Shown piece by piece: positions 13,535 through 21,753 of a stretch of DNA of 40,588 nt (position 1 is the stretch's first letter; each line of letters starts with the position of its first letter). Location: NCBI GenBank assembly GCA_025055135.1, contig JANWYU010000208.1:1-40588 (forward strand), in the 5' to 3' direction. The notes under the pieces were generated by a model. That model was not told where the DNA came from. It ran no database searches and saw only the letters and a list, made by a program, of their open reading frames with translations. A program made the translations under genes and the position numbers. This DNA is from Pseudobdellovibrionaceae bacterium (GTDB taxonomy: Bacteria > Bdellovibrionota > Bdellovibrionia > Bdellovibrionales > Bdellovibrionaceae).

Positions 13535-14455
13535 ATGGTATCATTTCGTGCTGGTTACCTTGGTTTGATTGGGTTACCCAATTCAGGAAAGAGCACGTTA
13601 CTTAATAGTTTGGTTCAACAGAAGGTTTCTATTGTGTCGCCCAAGCCCCAAACTACACGACAGAGGATATTAGGTTTGTGTTCATTTTCTTCATATCAGG
13701 TGATATTGGTGGATGCCCCTGGTTTGATTAAGGCTAGTTCAGGACTTAATGCCTTTTTAGAAAAAGAGGCCATTCATGTAATTAAGGAAAGTGATGCTTT
13801 GGTGGCAGTGCTTTCTTTGGATGTGGATAGCAAGCAGTCGTTAGATGAAGTGGTGAATTTGGTGCACCGATCGAATAAACCATGGTTTGTGGTAGTTACT
13901 AAAATTGATCTAGTTCATTTGAGCCACCGGAAGCTGCAATTAGTTGATGATTTAAAGCAAAATTTTCCTGAAGTTCCAGTGCTGACTTTCTCTAATACTT
14001 GGACGGGTAGTGAACTTGATAGCTTTAGGGCCGATTTTTTTAGCACGTGTCATCCTATGCTTCCACCGATGCCGTGTCCGTTGTTTGACGTAGATTTAGT
14101 AACACCTCATTCTTTGCGAGATTTATCTGCTGAGATTATTCGAGAAAAATGTTTTTTGGAACTTTCTGACGAGCTACCTTACCAGATTGCGGTTCGTATT
14201 CGCACTTTTTCTGAGAGCGAGAAATTTGCTAAAATTGAAGCTGATATTATTGTTAACAAAGAATCTCAAAAGGCTATGGTCATTGGAACTAAGGGTAGCA
14301 AAATTAAAAGAATTGGAACCTTAGCTCGCAAAGAAATAGAAGACTTATTGGGACATCCCTGTTACTTGGGTTTAACGGTAGTAGTGCGTGAAAATTGGAT
14401 GAAACATCACCTCATAATGAGAGAACTGGGTTACGTTAATGAAAAGAACTCATGA
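13535..14455 (+). CDS. era: GTPase Era
   Basis: 'GLIGLPNSGKSTLLNSLVQQKVSIVSPKPQTTRQRILG', G3 'DAPG', 'TKID', C-terminal KH 'MVIGTKGSKIKRIGTLARKEIEDLLG'. Confidence 0.96.
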   Translation: MVSFRAGYLGLIGLPNSGKSTLLNSLVQQKVSIVSPKPQTTRQRILGLCSFSSYQVILVDAPGLIKASSGLNAFLEKEAIHVIKESDALVAVLSLDVDSKQSLDEVVNLVHRSNKPWFVVVTKIDLVHLSHRKLQLVDDLKQNFPEVPVLTFSNTWTGSELDSFRADFFSTCHPMLPPMPCPLFDVDLVTPHSLRDLSAEIIREKCFLELSDELPYQIAVRIRTFSESEKFAKIEADIIVNKESQKAMVIGTKGSKIKRIGTLARKEIEDLLGHPCYLGLTVVVRENWMKHHLIMRELGYVNEKNS

Positions 14456-15773
14456 TTTTCAGTTACCGAGAGTGGCTATTGTGGGTCGGCCTAATGTGGG
14501 TAAATCGACCCTTTTTAACCTGCTTATTGGTAAACGTAAATCGGTTGTAAAAAATGAACCTGGTGTAACCAGAGATGTTCTGATTGATCGATGTGAGCTT
14601 TGGGGAAAATGGTTTGAAATTATTGATACGGGAGGATTAACTCGGTCGCAAAAATCCCTTGATATGTCAATTTTGGATCAAGTCCAAAATGTATTAAAAA
14701 CTGTGGACTTTGCAATAATGGTAACTGATGGTCGAGAAGGATTAACTAGTGATGATGAGGAGGTATTTCGGTTACTAAAAACAACGGGAGTTCCTTTTTT
14801 TGTCCTGGTTAATAAGGTGGATCATCTCTCTAGTCGGGATTTAGCTAAATCGGATTTTTATAAGTTTGGAGATCAGATTTTTGCAGTGAGTTTGGAGAGT
14901 CGTTTGGGGGTTTCGGAATTTTTAGAATTTTTATATCAACAGTTACCCTCTGTTTCTGAGGAAGATGTGTTACCCACTTTAAAAGTAGCATTAGTTGGCA
15001 AGCCTAATGTGGGAAAAAGCTCGCTCGTTAATGCCTTATTGGGGGAAAAAAGAGTAATAGTTTCGGAAACTCCGGGAACTACTGTTGATGTAGTAGAAAT
15101 TCCTTTTTTTATTGGAGATAGACCCTTTTGTCTGATTGATACCGCGGGATTAAGGCGCTCCAGTCGTCGTAAAGAAGATGTTGAAATTGTGGCATCTTTT
15201 AAAACCCAAGAGGCCATCGCTCAAGCTGATATCCTTTTATTGGTGATTGATTGCGGTGTGGGACCTACCGAGCAGGACGCTACCATTTTACAAAAGATCT
15301 TGGAAGAGCATAAAATGGTTATTGTAGTAGCTAATAAATCTGATGTGGCGAAGGCTCAAGACTCTCATTTTCGGGAGAAGTTCCGAACGGCAGTTGCTCA
15401 GGTATTTCATTTTTATCCGGATATACCAGTAGTTTTTACCAGCGCTCATACCAAGATGGGCTTATCTGACTTAAAAGAAAAAATATTATGGGCTCAGGAA
15501 CAGCTATCGGTACGGATCGCCACATCAGAATTAAACGATTTTTTATTTGATACGATTCGTAAGGCGCCCTCTCCTGTTTGGGGTAATGTTAATGTTAAAT
15601 TTTATTATATGACTCAAACGAAACAGGTTCCTCCCAGTTTCATTGCTTTTTGTAATCATCCTGAAGGGGTAGATCAAGCCTATCGTCGTTTTTTAGTGAA
15701 TCAGATAAAGGAAAAATTTAATTTAAAGGGTGTTCCCGTTCGCGTTTATGTTATGAAAAGTCGGTCTGAGTGA
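14439..15773 (+). CDS. der: Ribosome-associated GTPase Der (EngA), tandem G domains
   Basis: Two G1 motifs 'VGRPNVGKSTLFN' and 'VGKPNVGKSSLVN', 'DTGG' and 'DTAGLRR', KH-like C-terminus; overlaps era by 17 bp. Confidence 0.96.
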   Translation: MKRTHDFQLPRVAIVGRPNVGKSTLFNLLIGKRKSVVKNEPGVTRDVLIDRCELWGKWFEIIDTGGLTRSQKSLDMSILDQVQNVLKTVDFAIMVTDGREGLTSDDEEVFRLLKTTGVPFFVLVNKVDHLSSRDLAKSDFYKFGDQIFAVSLESRLGVSEFLEFLYQQLPSVSEEDVLPTLKVALVGKPNVGKSSLVNALLGEKRVIVSETPGTTVDVVEIPFFIGDRPFCLIDTAGLRRSSRRKEDVEIVASFKTQEAIAQADILLLVIDCGVGPTEQDATILQKILEEHKMVIVVANKSDVAKAQDSHFREKFRTAVAQVFHFYPDIPVVFTSAHTKMGLSDLKEKILWAQEQLSVRIATSELNDFLFDTIRKAPSPVWGNVNVKFYYMTQTKQVPPSFIAFCNHPEGVDQAYRRFLVNQIKEKFNLKGVPVRVYVMKSRSE

Positions 15774-15841
15774 TTAGGTCGCTTGGTAACAAGAGATAAA
15801 AATATGGTACCAATTAAAATTTGCAAGGGAAAAATGTGATC

Positions 15842-18190
15842 ATGCGAAAAATTTTTGGCTCATATCCTATCTATATTGGTGTTATCTTGACCAGTTTAAG
15901 CTTGGGTAACTTTTGGAGATTGCCTTTCTTGGTGGCTCAGGAGGGTTCTGGTGTGTTCTTTTTTTTGTTTGTTACTTTTTTGTTTTTTCTTGGCTTGCCC
16001 ATTCTTATTTCAGAATTAATTGCCCGCCAAATTGTGGAAAAAGAATTCTATCTTTTTCAGGATAAAATTAGTCGACATAAGTGGTTCAAGATTCTGTCTT
16101 TTGTTCCCCTTTTGTTTAGCACGATTATCTTGCTTTATTACTCGATTTTAAGTTCTGGCGTACTTCATCTTTTTATTCAATTTTTAAAAAAGACGCTGGG
16201 GTTTTTACAAAAGTCACAGTTTTTGGAGTTTGCAGGATTTGCTCAACAGCATTGGAAACAACTTCTTTTTTCTTCGACCCATATTTGTATTGTTTTTTTG
16301 TGGATCAGCGCTGATGGCAAGAGGGGTATTAAAAGCGCCCTAACTATTTTGGGTCCATTAGCTTTGTTTGTTGTTTTTTTACTAAATATAACTTTGTTTA
16401 AAGAATTGGGAATTGAGGGTCTAGTTGCCCACATTTTCTACCCAGATTTTGAGAGCTTTAGCTGGCGTTCGTATTTGTTAGCATTTGGACAGGTGTGCTT
16501 TACCCTGGGGTTAGGTTTGTGGCTGCCTGGCGCTTTAGCCCCTAAAGAACTGGGATCGCGAAATATTGCCTCTTTTGCCTTTCAAAATATTTTAGTGGCT
16601 ATGGGAATTTCTTTTTTTGCCCTTATACAAATGTTAGGGGTAGCCCATGTGCTTTCGGGTAGTGAGGCAAAAAATCAATTTATTTTTTTTCAGAATCTTC
16701 CAACATATTTTATGGAAATGGATTATGGTAACTTAATTGGTATTGTTTTTTATGGTGCGGTTTACTTGGTTGCGGTTTTGTCCTCTTTGGGTCTAGCGGA
16801 GAGTGTGGTGGTTAATTTGGAGCGATTACTGAACTGGAATCGTTCTTTTTCCCTCTCAGCTTTGGTAGGGGTTTTAATTGTGGGGGTTGCTACCCTTATT
16901 TTTTTAAGTCGTTGGTTAGAATACTCTACTATGGATTTGGTACTTCACATTGATTTTTGGGTGGTTAATTTTGGTATTACCATAATGGCGGCCTTTTTTT
17001 CGTGGTTAGTGGCCCATTGGTTTAGCATAGAAAGATTAAAACAATTATTTGTCTCGGAAGAAATTATAGAGACGAAGGCTATGTTTAAATATTGGTATTT
17101 TCTGATTCATAGGTTCATTCCTTGGGCCACTTTTATTTTTATTATTTTATTTGTCTTTTCATCGATTGCTTGGGCAGCAGGCTTTCAAGGTCGGTTACAA
17201 CAAAGATTTGAGGTTACTCATCCGGTAGGCGCTGAAGGTGTGACGTCTGATCTGACGATTAGGCGCTTCCGATTAAAATATCAAGGAGAGGTTCCTGAGT
17301 TGCAGAACGTCCGTTACCAGGTACAATTGTCATTTTCCCGGGGCGATCAGTCCTGGGAACAATTGGAGTTCCCCAACATTCTTCGAGATGCCTTCTTTAC
17401 TTGGGATAGAAATGCTGATCATCAAATTCATGTTGGATTAAGAAAGTTACCCGGCAATCGGCAAAGGGTTATTTCCTCAGGTGCCTTAGAGATGACCGAT
17501 CGCTCCCTTGCCAATGGAGAATTTAACTTAGATCGTGATGTTGGATTTTTTAGCTACCATCAATGGCAGCGGGGAACCCATGTTTTTCGAGGTCAAGGAG
17601 CCCTAAGTTCAGGTTTGGGACGTGGGACGCCTTCGCGTTCTGGGACTTTCTTGTTGGCAAGTACTTTACGATTGGAATGGTTACCTTGGGGAGAATTTCT
17701 CAAAGGTGGGGATTATTTTGAGGGTGATTTATTGGGCGAAGAGGATCCCAAATTAAGTATTGGCGTAGTGGCTCATTATAATCCCAACGTGGTTCGTCAT
17801 AGGGGCACGGTGGGATGGTTACTTCCTTCGGATGTGGTTCGAAAAATGGGTACTCTAATTGTAGATACCTTATTTAAGTATCGAGGTTTTTCTTACAGTC
17901 ATGAAATTTTTTATCGTTCATTTAATAACGAAAATTCCGGTGATCCCCAGATTGTGTTATGGTCAGGGTATGGTTACGCAGTGCAGGCGTCCTACAGTTG
18001 GGCACAGAGGTGGTTGGCTGCTTTACGCTATAGTCACATACAGGCAGTCAGTGGTGTTAACTTTTTAAGGGAGGAAACCGTTTTCGGATTAAGCTATTTG
18101 GTGCGTCATCATCGCTTTAAAATTCAAAATGAAGTCTCCATTCTCTCCGAAGAGAGTTACTATCGTTTTCAGGTCGAATTTGGCTTCTAA
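15842..18190 (+). CDS. Fusion ORF: NSS/SNF-family sodium-dependent transporter (N-terminal, about 11 TM) joined in frame to an OprO/P-type outer-membrane porin (C-terminal)
   Basis: N-terminus 'LTSLSLGNFWRLPFLVAQEGSGVFFFLFVTFLFFLGLPILISELIAR' is the NSS TM1-TM2 signature; 11 hydrophobic segments by eye; C-terminus 'AGFQGRLQQRFEV...SDLTIRRFRLKYQGE...VGLRKLPGNRQRVISSGALEMTDRSLANGEFNLDRDVGF...FRVQVEFGF-like end' resembles phosphate-selective porins O/P. Track start is TTG 15821; ATG 15842 (AAGGGA upstream) or GTG 15836 is more likely. Confidence 0.85.
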   Translation: MRKIFGSYPIYIGVILTSLSLGNFWRLPFLVAQEGSGVFFFLFVTFLFFLGLPILISELIARQIVEKEFYLFQDKISRHKWFKILSFVPLLFSTIILLYYSILSSGVLHLFIQFLKKTLGFLQKSQFLEFAGFAQQHWKQLLFSSTHICIVFLWISADGKRGIKSALTILGPLALFVVFLLNITLFKELGIEGLVAHIFYPDFESFSWRSYLLAFGQVCFTLGLGLWLPGALAPKELGSRNIASFAFQNILVAMGISFFALIQMLGVAHVLSGSEAKNQFIFFQNLPTYFMEMDYGNLIGIVFYGAVYLVAVLSSLGLAESVVVNLERLLNWNRSFSLSALVGVLIVGVATLIFLSRWLEYSTMDLVLHIDFWVVNFGITIMAAFFSWLVAHWFSIERLKQLFVSEEIIETKAMFKYWYFLIHRFIPWATFIFIILFVFSSIAWAAGFQGRLQQRFEVTHPVGAEGVTSDLTIRRFRLKYQGEVPELQNVRYQVQLSFSRGDQSWEQLEFPNILRDAFFTWDRNADHQIHVGLRKLPGNRQRVISSGALEMTDRSLANGEFNLDRDVGFFSYHQWQRGTHVFRGQGALSSGLGRGTPSRSGTFLLASTLRLEWLPWGEFLKGGDYFEGDLLGEEDPKLSIGVVAHYNPNVVRHRGTVGWLLPSDVVRKMGTLIVDTLFKYRGFSYSHEIFYRSFNNENSGDPQIVLWSGYGYAVQASYSWAQRWLAALRYSHIQAVSGVNFLREETVFGLSYLVRHHRFKIQNEVSILSEESYYRFQVEFGF

Positions 18191-18243: not shown

Positions 18244-19086
18244 GTGCCTGAAATCGCGGAAGTAGAGACCATTCGCCGGCAGTTACTTACCCTTTTTCCC
18301 GCCCAGATTGTGGCGTACCGTTCTGGTCGATTTGTTACCACCTTTTTAGAGGATTTTTTCCAGGTTAATTTGCAGCAAAGGACGATTTGTGAGGTGAGTC
18401 GTTACGGAAAATGGTTGATTTTTGTAATGGATCACGGGGCTTTTTACTTTTTAACTCATTTGGGTATGAGTGGTCGATGGTTACTCGGAGAACGATGGCT
18501 TAACCAGTCCCATGTTCATTTAACTGTGTGTTTGGCAGTAGGGTCTGGAAACCTAGTATATCTCAGTTACCAGGATCCCCGTCGTTTTGGACGCTGGCTT
18601 TGGTTTCGTGCTGATCAATTTCAAAATTGGCTTTCGCGCCATCAAGCTCCCGATGTTTTATCCCATGATTTTGATTTGGATTACCTTTCTTGGGTGTGTC
18701 TTTCCCATGCTCAGCGGATTTTAAAGCCCACTCTTTTAGATCAATCCCTATTTCCTGGTGTTGGAAATTATCTTGCCTCTGAGATTTGCCATGAAGCGGG
18801 ATTGGCACCTACTAGACCCCTTGGGAGTCTGAACCATCACGAAATCTTCCGATTAAAAGAAGCCATTCACTCCGTGATTGATCGGTGCTTGAGCTTTGGA
18901 GGAACTAGTTTTTTGGGGGGATATCGAGACGTAAATGGGCTGCTCAGTCAATCCTGTCATCTCCGTGTATTCCGCCAGCCCTTCTGTCGCACCTGTTTTT
19001 TAAGAAGGAAGGGGAAGAAATCCCCAGTCCGTGTTATCGTTCAGTCATCTCGTCGTACCTTTTACTGCCCTAATTGCCAGAAGTAG
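18244..19086 (+). CDS. mutM: Formamidopyrimidine-DNA glycosylase
   Basis: GTG start, 'MPEIAEVETIRRQL', 'LTHLGMSGRW', 'DPRRFGRW', 'LFPGVGNYLASEICHEAGLAPTRP', Zn finger 'CRTC...CPNC'. Confidence 0.93.
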   Translation: MPEIAEVETIRRQLLTLFPAQIVAYRSGRFVTTFLEDFFQVNLQQRTICEVSRYGKWLIFVMDHGAFYFLTHLGMSGRWLLGERWLNQSHVHLTVCLAVGSGNLVYLSYQDPRRFGRWLWFRADQFQNWLSRHQAPDVLSHDFDLDYLSWVCLSHAQRILKPTLLDQSLFPGVGNYLASEICHEAGLAPTRPLGSLNHHEIFRLKEAIHSVIDRCLSFGGTSFLGGYRDVNGLLSQSCHLRVFRQPFCRTCFLRRKGKKSPVRVIVQSSRRTFYCPNCQK

Positions 19087-19131: not shown

Positions 19132-21753
19132 TTAATATAAGCCTTCCTTCGATGTCTGATTGGCTGATTGGGAAAGGGTCTTTCTCCATGCTTCCCAAAA
19201 TCGGTGGATAATGGTGGTAAACTCCGGCATTTGTTTTATTTGCTCCGTATTCATATTTAATAGATCTTCAAGTTTGTACTCGTGCAATTCAAAATATTCT
19301 GAGCCCATCATTTGAGCCTTCCGACGGTTTAGCTGAGTCATTGCGTTTGCATGAAATGCAAACTGATACTCCATTTTAATTAAGGTGCTTTGAATGCGTT
19401 TAATTTCCTCTTGAAGGGCTATAATTTCTCTCGCTAATGATACGAACCAACGAGAGGGTTGACCCAAATCCTCTGCTGATAATTGCCACTCTTCAGCATA
19501 TTGCTTCAGCATTTCCACTCCGTTTGCAGTGAGTTGAAATCGTCCATTTAGAATTTCACCAATCATCCTATTGTCCACTATCCTTTTTGCCCTTAAATAT
19601 TTAGCGGAGGTGTCTTTGTATTCCTCTAATAATTTTACAATATCGTCTGGAACGTTTTCAAAAAGGCCCTCACTTTTATTATTTTCGTTTCTGATAACGG
19701 ACAAAATATAACTCCTCATTCTCTGTCTTATTTTTTGAGAATCCAAGTAGACTTTTCTCTCTAAGAGTTGATTGGTAAGCTTCTGAGCCCGTTCTAATTT
19801 AGGAAACTCCAAATATTGTGCTAACTCTATTAACAGATTGCTTTTCCTCCGAAGTAAAGCCCGTTTCATATCCATTTCTTTGTGAAGTCCTAATCTTTCC
19901 GTTGAGAGATCGTTCGTATCCTTGAAGTGTTCTCGGATTTGCTCATTAATAAGGTTAAATTCTGAGAGACGTTCTTTTGGAACCCCAGCCATCCCTGAAA
20001 CAATATTTTTTAATTCTTTTTGTCTTACCTCTAACTCCTGAATTTTCTTTTGTATTTGTTCTTTTTCTTGAGGATCCATTTTTTCTTTAAATCGTTTTCG
20101 GAGTTGGGCAACGGTATTAGAAATGGTCTCAAGTTCCCTCCCAGCCTGTTGGGTTTTTTCCGTTGGCTTAAAGTATTGGAGTGAAAACATCTTTGCGAAA
20201 TGTCTGAAGCGAAGATCGTTGAGATAGGCGTGGAGTACCTCCCCTAACTCTGGAGCAAAACCTGCTACCGAAGATGGGGGCCTTTTATCCTGCCTCTTGA
20301 GCTCTTTTCCCGTAATTTTTTCCAAATACTGAGTAATCCGAACAAAAACTTCGATGCTTCCAAGATCTTCTGGTCTAAACGCATTTTGATCAAATTGCAC
20401 TAGCCCCTTTTCAACAAATTGTTTCAATTCTTGGGGACTCAACTTACCATTTAAAATGCGTCTTCTATCTTCCGTGGATATTTGATCGGAGATTTGCACA
20501 AGAGGAGCATGATCCAATATGAGATGCCCCACTTTTGTTTTTTCGTTATTAAAAATTAAAAGACCTTCATGCATGAGAACAAACTCGGTGTTCTTCAAAG
20601 ATGCAATATAGTCATCAAAATCTTTTTCATGACCGCGATATAAAAAGTCGTAAGCGCCCATTATGTAAAGAGCTGGTAACAATTGGTCCTGATTTTCTTT
20701 GTTACGAGCCCAATCAATTGCTGACCACAGGAAGTCGGCAAAAGTCCAACCAAAAGGGTTGATCTTGTCATCCCGATTCAACACGAGATCAAACGACCGT
20801 TCAAACTCAGCTAATTCTAAATCATTAGAGTTCTTACTGTCGATTTCATCCGCCTTGGCCCACTTTTCCTCGATGATTAGCCGTCCTGGAGCAGGATCTG
20901 GTATGGTCGAAAGTGAAATCAGTGCAGAAACAAGATCATCATTCTTGCTATAAAAGGTACGATACAAGTCGACCTCTAAACCTCCTAGGCTGTGCCCCAT
21001 CAAAACGATGGGCTTACCCGACGGTTTTATAAATCTTCGAATAAAATTTCGTAACTCCTCAAAATATTCTCGGGGATTACGATAGAAATGTCGTACCCCT
21101 TCGCCATGCCAAGGTTTATCAAGGGCTATGACAGCAACCTTCCGTTTCGAAAAGTAATCAATAAAAGGTGCGGCTGAGTGACTTCCTGTTGTTACCGTTG
21201 CTCCACCGTGCAAAAACACAATAGCAACCTCCGCCTCATCTTGAACTAAGCTCTTTTTTGTGCGTCCTAAATTATCTAACAAGGCTTTGGCAGGAAAAAT
21301 AATGTTCGTTTCTCCACCCTGATTAGAACCAAGACCAAAGGGGGCTCGGGCATGGGCCGATAGGCCCTCAGCGATTTTTACAAATCCTGGTCCGTTCGAT
21401 TGTAATAGCTCATGATTAATCAGCTTTATACCTTCAGGAAGGGCCTCACGGAAAATCAGTGGGCCAAGACTTCCCTCCCAGAATTGAGGATTCTCAATTT
21501 CCCGTTTCCAATCTCTAAATTGTGGTAAGGGACGATGATTTTGATTACGAACCCTATTGATCAGGGATTGAACCGTCAAGACCTTTTGGGATTTTCCTAC
21601 AACAACCTTTCTTGAATCCTCACTAATAAAAACCCTATCACAGTTTTCTCCGCTACTTCCATGACCATTAAGGGCTAAGCCCACTAATAGAAACAGTGTT
21701 GGAATTATCTTAAACTTCGGATGGTTTTTGAAGCACAGGGGAGTTTGGCCCAT
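19132..21753 (-). CDS. Exported alpha/beta hydrolase with long alpha-helical/coiled-coil C-terminal region
   Basis: N-terminal hydrophobic signal-like segment; 'VAIVFLHGGATVTTGSHSA', nucleophile elbow 'VLMGHSLGGLE', 'YIMGAYDFLYRG', 'VGHLILDHAP'; last about 350 aa Lys/Glu/Gln-rich helical. Confidence 0.82.
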   Translation of the reverse strand: MGQTPLCFKNHPKFKIIPTLFLLVGLALNGHGSSGENCDRVFISEDSRKVVVGKSQKVLTVQSLINRVRNQNHRPLPQFRDWKREIENPQFWEGSLGPLIFREALPEGIKLINHELLQSNGPGFVKIAEGLSAHARAPFGLGSNQGGETNIIFPAKALLDNLGRTKKSLVQDEAEVAIVFLHGGATVTTGSHSAAPFIDYFSKRKVAVIALDKPWHGEGVRHFYRNPREYFEELRNFIRRFIKPSGKPIVLMGHSLGGLEVDLYRTFYSKNDDLVSALISLSTIPDPAPGRLIIEEKWAKADEIDSKNSNDLELAEFERSFDLVLNRDDKINPFGWTFADFLWSAIDWARNKENQDQLLPALYIMGAYDFLYRGHEKDFDDYIASLKNTEFVLMHEGLLIFNNEKTKVGHLILDHAPLVQISDQISTEDRRRILNGKLSPQELKQFVEKGLVQFDQNAFRPEDLGSIEVFVRITQYLEKITGKELKRQDKRPPSSVAGFAPELGEVLHAYLNDLRFRHFAKMFSLQYFKPTEKTQQAGRELETISNTVAQLRKRFKEKMDPQEKEQIQKKIQELEVRQKELKNIVSGMAGVPKERLSEFNLINEQIREHFKDTNDLSTERLGLHKEMDMKRALLRRKSNLLIELAQYLEFPKLERAQKLTNQLLERKVYLDSQKIRQRMRSYILSVIRNENNKSEGLFENVPDDIVKLLEEYKDTSAKYLRAKRIVDNRMIGEILNGRFQLTANGVEMLKQYAEEWQLSAEDLGQPSRWFVSLAREIIALQEEIKRIQSTLIKMEYQFAFHANAMTQLNRRKAQMMGSEYFELHEYKLEDLLNMNTEQIKQMPEFTTIIHRFWEAWRKTLSQSANQTSKEGLY

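Follow-up and report, generated by a model that had tools for sequence, protein, structure and literature searches.

FbcH of Bradyrhizobium japonicum is a cytochrome b/c1 polyprotein, in which one chain is cut at an internal signal sequence; behind cytochrome b, the c1 part retains a signal sequence of its own, and both products stay in one inner-membrane complex. Fusions involving porins are described as rare in the available text of a survey of 76 porin families, and in the fusions named there (MnoP, SpmT and others) the partners are other porins or soluble domains (PMC4827864). Cleavage by signal peptidase I follows an Ala-X-Ala (-3/-1) rule (PMC9360617, PMC8844934), and, as RsiP illustrates, a membrane protein can be cut by signal peptidase immediately beyond a transmembrane (TM) segment (PMC8844934).

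The window analyzed here, a stretch of 40,588 nucleotides from a draft genome of a Pseudobdellovibrionaceae bacterium (contig JANWYU010000208.1), contains on its forward strand a single frame that encodes a complete MhsT-type NSS/SNF transporter with 11 helices followed by a complete 16-strand Porin_O_P barrel. The open frame (15821..18190) is read through without an internal stop and codes for 789 amino acids from a TTG, or for 782 amino acids from the ATG at 15842, with the stop at 18190. In the start region (15825..15844) a Shine-Dalgarno-like AAGGG (15825-15829) is located 6 nt upstream of an in-frame GTG at 15836, which, judging from the sequence, is the likelier start of the fused ORF. 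Both Pfam matches exceed the gathering cut-off: the SNF family (PF00209) scores 40.2 bits (cut-off 27), with the best stretch at residues 14-120, and the Porin_O_P family (PF07396) scores 26.8 bits (cut-off 20.9) at residues 450-567. The NCBIfam model NF037979 scores 32.4 for the transporter half, which is below its cut-off of 50. The in-frame transporter-porin fusion and the two family assignments, which an earlier note had proposed from the letters of the DNA, are thus both borne out.

The transporter half (15842..17176, residues 1-445) is defined by PF00209, hydropathy, an AlphaFold2 model and its synteny after der. Hydropathy gives 11 TM segments, as in relatives from the same order, and the lysines and arginines of the loops, with the porin excluded, number 20 in the even and 9 in the odd set, which fits a cytoplasmic N-terminus. 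This agrees with the earlier note, which had counted 11 segments by eye and placed the porin part on the periplasmic side. The whole-chain model (pLDDT 73) is weak at residues 360-431 on account of poor alignment there, and the transporter half was modeled separately. The AlphaFold2 model of the first 454 amino acids is a LeuT-fold transporter (pLDDT 82.5, pTM 0.85), with MhsT as its best match in the PDB (TM 0.80-0.84). The sequence has nevertheless diverged unusually: its identity to the family is 25.6% versus 48.5% within the family, and only 58 of 117 family-conserved positions are retained, the lowest number in the set compared. A comparison of conserved Na+-site residues gave a mixed picture: LGNxWRxP of TM1 and the FT of TM6 are retained; Gly16, Gly20, Ser223, Asp253 and others are altered. 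Identity falls far less in the five neighboring genes, and the region 15842-17176 has evolved much faster than these five genes upstream of it. It is possible that this divergence reflects an altered function or relaxed constraint, and a loss or change of role may be under way in the transporter half. Because it is so unusually diverged, the putative transporter's own activity is uncertain.

The porin half (17177..18187) is recognized as a mature Porin_O_P-type barrel by PF07396, the structural model, the match to OprP (2o4v) and identity to other porins. In the whole-chain model it forms 16 strands and matches OprP and further 16-strand porins, and the chain ends in ...RFQVEFGF, confirming the terminal aromatic residue, a Phe, that had been noticed earlier. 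Its closest relatives are separate porin genes of four genomes from other families of the order (38-44% identity), followed by porins of Bacteroidota and others (35-37%); none of these closest separate porins is part of a fusion. One of the relatives, with 37% identity to the window porin, comes from a record titled 'Sphingomonadales bacterium' (L031, VHAW01000140.1); the other named porin relatives are from Bacteroidota or Ignavibacteria, and it may be worth checking how this MAG contig was labeled. In an alignment with porins, the start of the window barrel coincides with strand 1 of the relatives, and both the signal peptide and the few tens of residues that these carry ahead of that strand are missing. 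The earlier description of a complete OprO/P-like porin thus holds for the 16-strand barrel and fails for the N-terminal segment preceding it. A cleavable N-terminal signal peptide of its own was not found in the porin half, its place being occupied by the last helix of the transporter, TM11. As it has no signal peptide separate from TM11, the porin half is a Porin_O_P barrel domain rather than a stand-alone member of the family.

Informative in this locus is the junction between the two halves, the peptide FVFSSIAWAAGFQGRLQQ. TM11 (17111..17176, residues 424-445) aligns to the C-terminal helix of the relatives, and in an alignment with 22 of them the window transporter spans this entire last helix, to about the position of their stop. 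In the 454-residue model this helix extends over residues 409-445, with pLDDT >90 over most of its length, and ends at the predicted cut. In the whole-chain model the helix continues to residue 446 and runs directly into the strand 448-461, the first of the 16. Nothing except ...SSIAWA/AGFQG is present between the complete TM11 and the barrel. TM11 is the sole hydrophobic segment preceding the porin in the hydropathy profile, and both its orientation and its layout are those of a signal peptide, with a K/H/R n-region, a hydrophobic core of 11-12 residues and SSIAWA as the c-region. The transporter end reads ...FIFIILFVFSSIAWA/AGFQG, in which Ala443-Trp444-Ala445 (17168..17176) constitutes a predicted signal-peptidase-I site with the cut before Ala446, a prediction judged by the Ala-X-Ala rule and the layout of the segment only. 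Strand 1 of the barrel begins 2 residues past this site. An internal hydrophobic segment of N-in/C-out orientation with an Ala-X-Ala site behind it, as expected of an FbcH-like membrane polyprotein cut by signal peptidase, is present in the fused ORF; none of the 38 relatives compared shows this motif at the corresponding place. The genome encodes two Peptidase_S26 proteins.

We read the locus, with a probability of about 0.68, as a gene fusion encoding a self-sorting polyprotein, in which TM11 would double as the signal peptide of the porin and the chain would be cut after Ala445. The Sec machinery would insert the 11 helices with the N-terminus inside, bringing the C-terminus of TM11 into the periplasm, where it would be presented to signal peptidase I for a cut between Ala445 and Ala446. 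The transporter, with TM11 complete, would then remain in the inner membrane, and the released porin would be folded from the periplasm into the outer membrane by BAM. Because the last TM segment doubles as a candidate signal peptide and carries a signal-peptidase-I motif, most likely the product is cut and does not persist as one two-membrane protein. The fusion and topology recognized in the earlier note are retained; the probable dual role of TM11, and with it a cut product, had not been foreseen there. A more far-reaching suggestion, that the joined form is functional in itself, the cut being slow or regulated, with insertion of the transporter gating release of the porin and the amounts of pump and pore coupled one to one for the same substrate, appears to us rather unlikely.

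The genomic setting offers some insight into how the fusion might have arisen. The upstream neighbor is der (14439..15773, forward strand), a conserved partner of the NSS gene. The order mnmA-mtaB-rnc-era-der-NSS is shared by the window and nine genomes with long flanks, of which eight are from the same family (three of them from the genus g7) and one is from another family; rnc-era-der-NSS is also kept in L064, from another family. Because of this conserved gene order through der-NSS, the transporter is, of the two halves, most likely the one that was inherited vertically. The downstream neighbor encodes a MutM/Fpg-like DNA glycosylase (18244..19086, forward strand; family match below the curated cut-off), and in none of the relatives' loci compared is such a gene found next to NSS. 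In eight relatives (L054-L059, L063 and L064) NSS has behind it, either directly or one gene on, a conserved convergent gene whose product carries the motif DPFxDYSEFDEASEEEADINFF, and this gene has no match among the window proteins. As the mutM-like gene, rather than the convergent gene, follows the fusion, a rearrangement downstream of NSS is indicated. Such an event would have joined the ancestral post-der NSS gene to a Porin_O_P gene, swapping the signal peptide of the porin for TM11 of the transporter, with the Ala-X-Ala motif at the end of TM11 being either kept or made.

Some further features of these neighborhoods may be recorded. The product of the convergent gene ends in ...GxNF like an outer-membrane protein. 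In the window, the reverse strand at 19132-21753 encodes a protein of 873 aa; it has an alpha/beta hydrolase domain, and its long C-terminal region shows no Pfam match over the cut-off. In three genomes of the genus g7 from the same family (L074, L075 and L076; e.g. L074:5158-7998) the gene after NSS encodes a CheY-like response regulator, and next comes another, different Porin_O_P gene, which carries its own signal peptide and is near NSS without being joined to it. We considered this locus as an intermediate and rejected it: the CheY-like gene lies in between, and the g7 porin shows no match with the window porin.

The fusion is a singleton, known from one contig of one draft genome. SNF matches are present in at least 151, and Porin_O_P matches in at least 165, of 376 genomes of the phylum, and no second fused frame was found in 142 genomes of the order or among the matches listed for the 376 phylum genomes; a scan of viral contigs for a fused frame likewise returned nothing. 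Among the matches listed, the window genome has a single SNF and a single Porin_O_P match, both in the fused ORF. Two long porin frames, in G094 (562 aa) and G303 (640 aa), proved to be ordinary: in each, an open upstream frame precedes a porin that has its own signal peptide. The earlier note had held that close relatives always having two separate genes with normal intergenic DNA would refute the fusion. The genes are indeed separate in all relatives examined, but this does not refute it, because the closest porin relatives do not adjoin the transporter gene and because the second hydrophobic segment expected of two genes has been lost.

As a single residue separates helix from barrel, an uncut chain can hardly serve both membranes, and a conduit of joined transporter and porin across both of them, which has only the joined frame in its favor, is very improbable: residue 446 is the last of the helix and 448 the first of the barrel, the periplasm is many nanometers wide, and an Ala-X-Ala site is located at the joint itself. 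The lack of a linker therefore points either to a cut at Ala445-Ala446 of the long chain or to an internal start at the ATG 17081..17083 (Met414) with a cut at the same place. In the latter case most of the porin would be made as a separate precursor with MFKYWYFLIHRFIPWATFIFIILFVFSSIAWA as an ordinary signal peptide, and the long chain would be a by-product. The 32-residue stretch from Met414 does read as a good signal peptide, and porins are often required in larger amounts than transporters. However, GAAGG lies just 2 nt before this ATG, which is poor spacing, no promoter-like match was found on the forward strand between 15600 and 17080, and a Met is also present here in many relatives, so that the ATG probably goes back to the ancestral transporter. 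We consider internal initiation unlikely and prefer the cut of the long chain by signal peptidase, since it needs no extra start site.

An assembly or sequencing artefact that merged two unrelated genes is a natural concern, as the fusion comes from a single draft genome of 231 contigs and its downstream neighbor mutM does not adjoin NSS in relatives. A missed stop or frameshift is unlikely to be the simple cause, because it would have left two hydrophobic segments, TM11 and the signal peptide of the porin; a single one is present, and neither of the other two frames contains a start codon with a signal peptide that could serve the porin. A chance chimeric join, in turn, would rarely fall in frame precisely between a complete TM11 with its Ala-X-Ala motif and strand 1 of the barrel, and GC at the third codon position is alike in the two halves (0.36 and 0.39), making an artefact improbable. 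Similarly improbable is a decaying fusion, in which the transporter half would have lost symport and would survive only as an extended leader for exporting the porin. The low identity of the NSS part beside its better conserved five neighbors and the 59 of 117 conserved positions that are altered, including TM1 glycines and one Asp of TM7, would be consistent with decay. On the other hand, 445 codons of intact frame encode a confident LeuT fold, the LGNxWRxP motif of TM1 retains its Asn, Trp, Arg and Pro and TM6 its FT, and a shifted substrate range would look identical.

The self-sorting polyprotein would differ from the described members of both its parent families. The window transporter shares its fold with the MhsT/LeuT-type NSS transporters, among which MhsT is the closest solved structure, but it ends in a porin and many of its conserved positions are altered. 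With the OprP/OprO-type porins the window porin shares the 16-strand barrel, a family match over the cut-off and the C-terminal Phe, but not an own signal peptide or the N-terminal segment before strand 1. As in the porin fusions of the survey, a porin is joined to another full-length domain, whereas none of those described in its available text has an inner-membrane transporter as the partner (PMC4827864). Literature searches yielded no direct paper on a transporter-porin fusion, and, within the reach of these searches, a Gram-negative polyprotein with products for different membranes is undescribed. If real, the fusion would be a natural case of a polytopic protein whose last helix came to serve an outer-membrane protein as its cleavable signal peptide, and it touches the long-standing problem of how TM helices and signal peptides differ. 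It would resemble FbcH in that one chain gives rise to two proteins, one of them multispanning in the inner membrane and the other exported, but, unlike FbcH, it would employ the transporter's own last helix and its exported product would be destined for the outer membrane.
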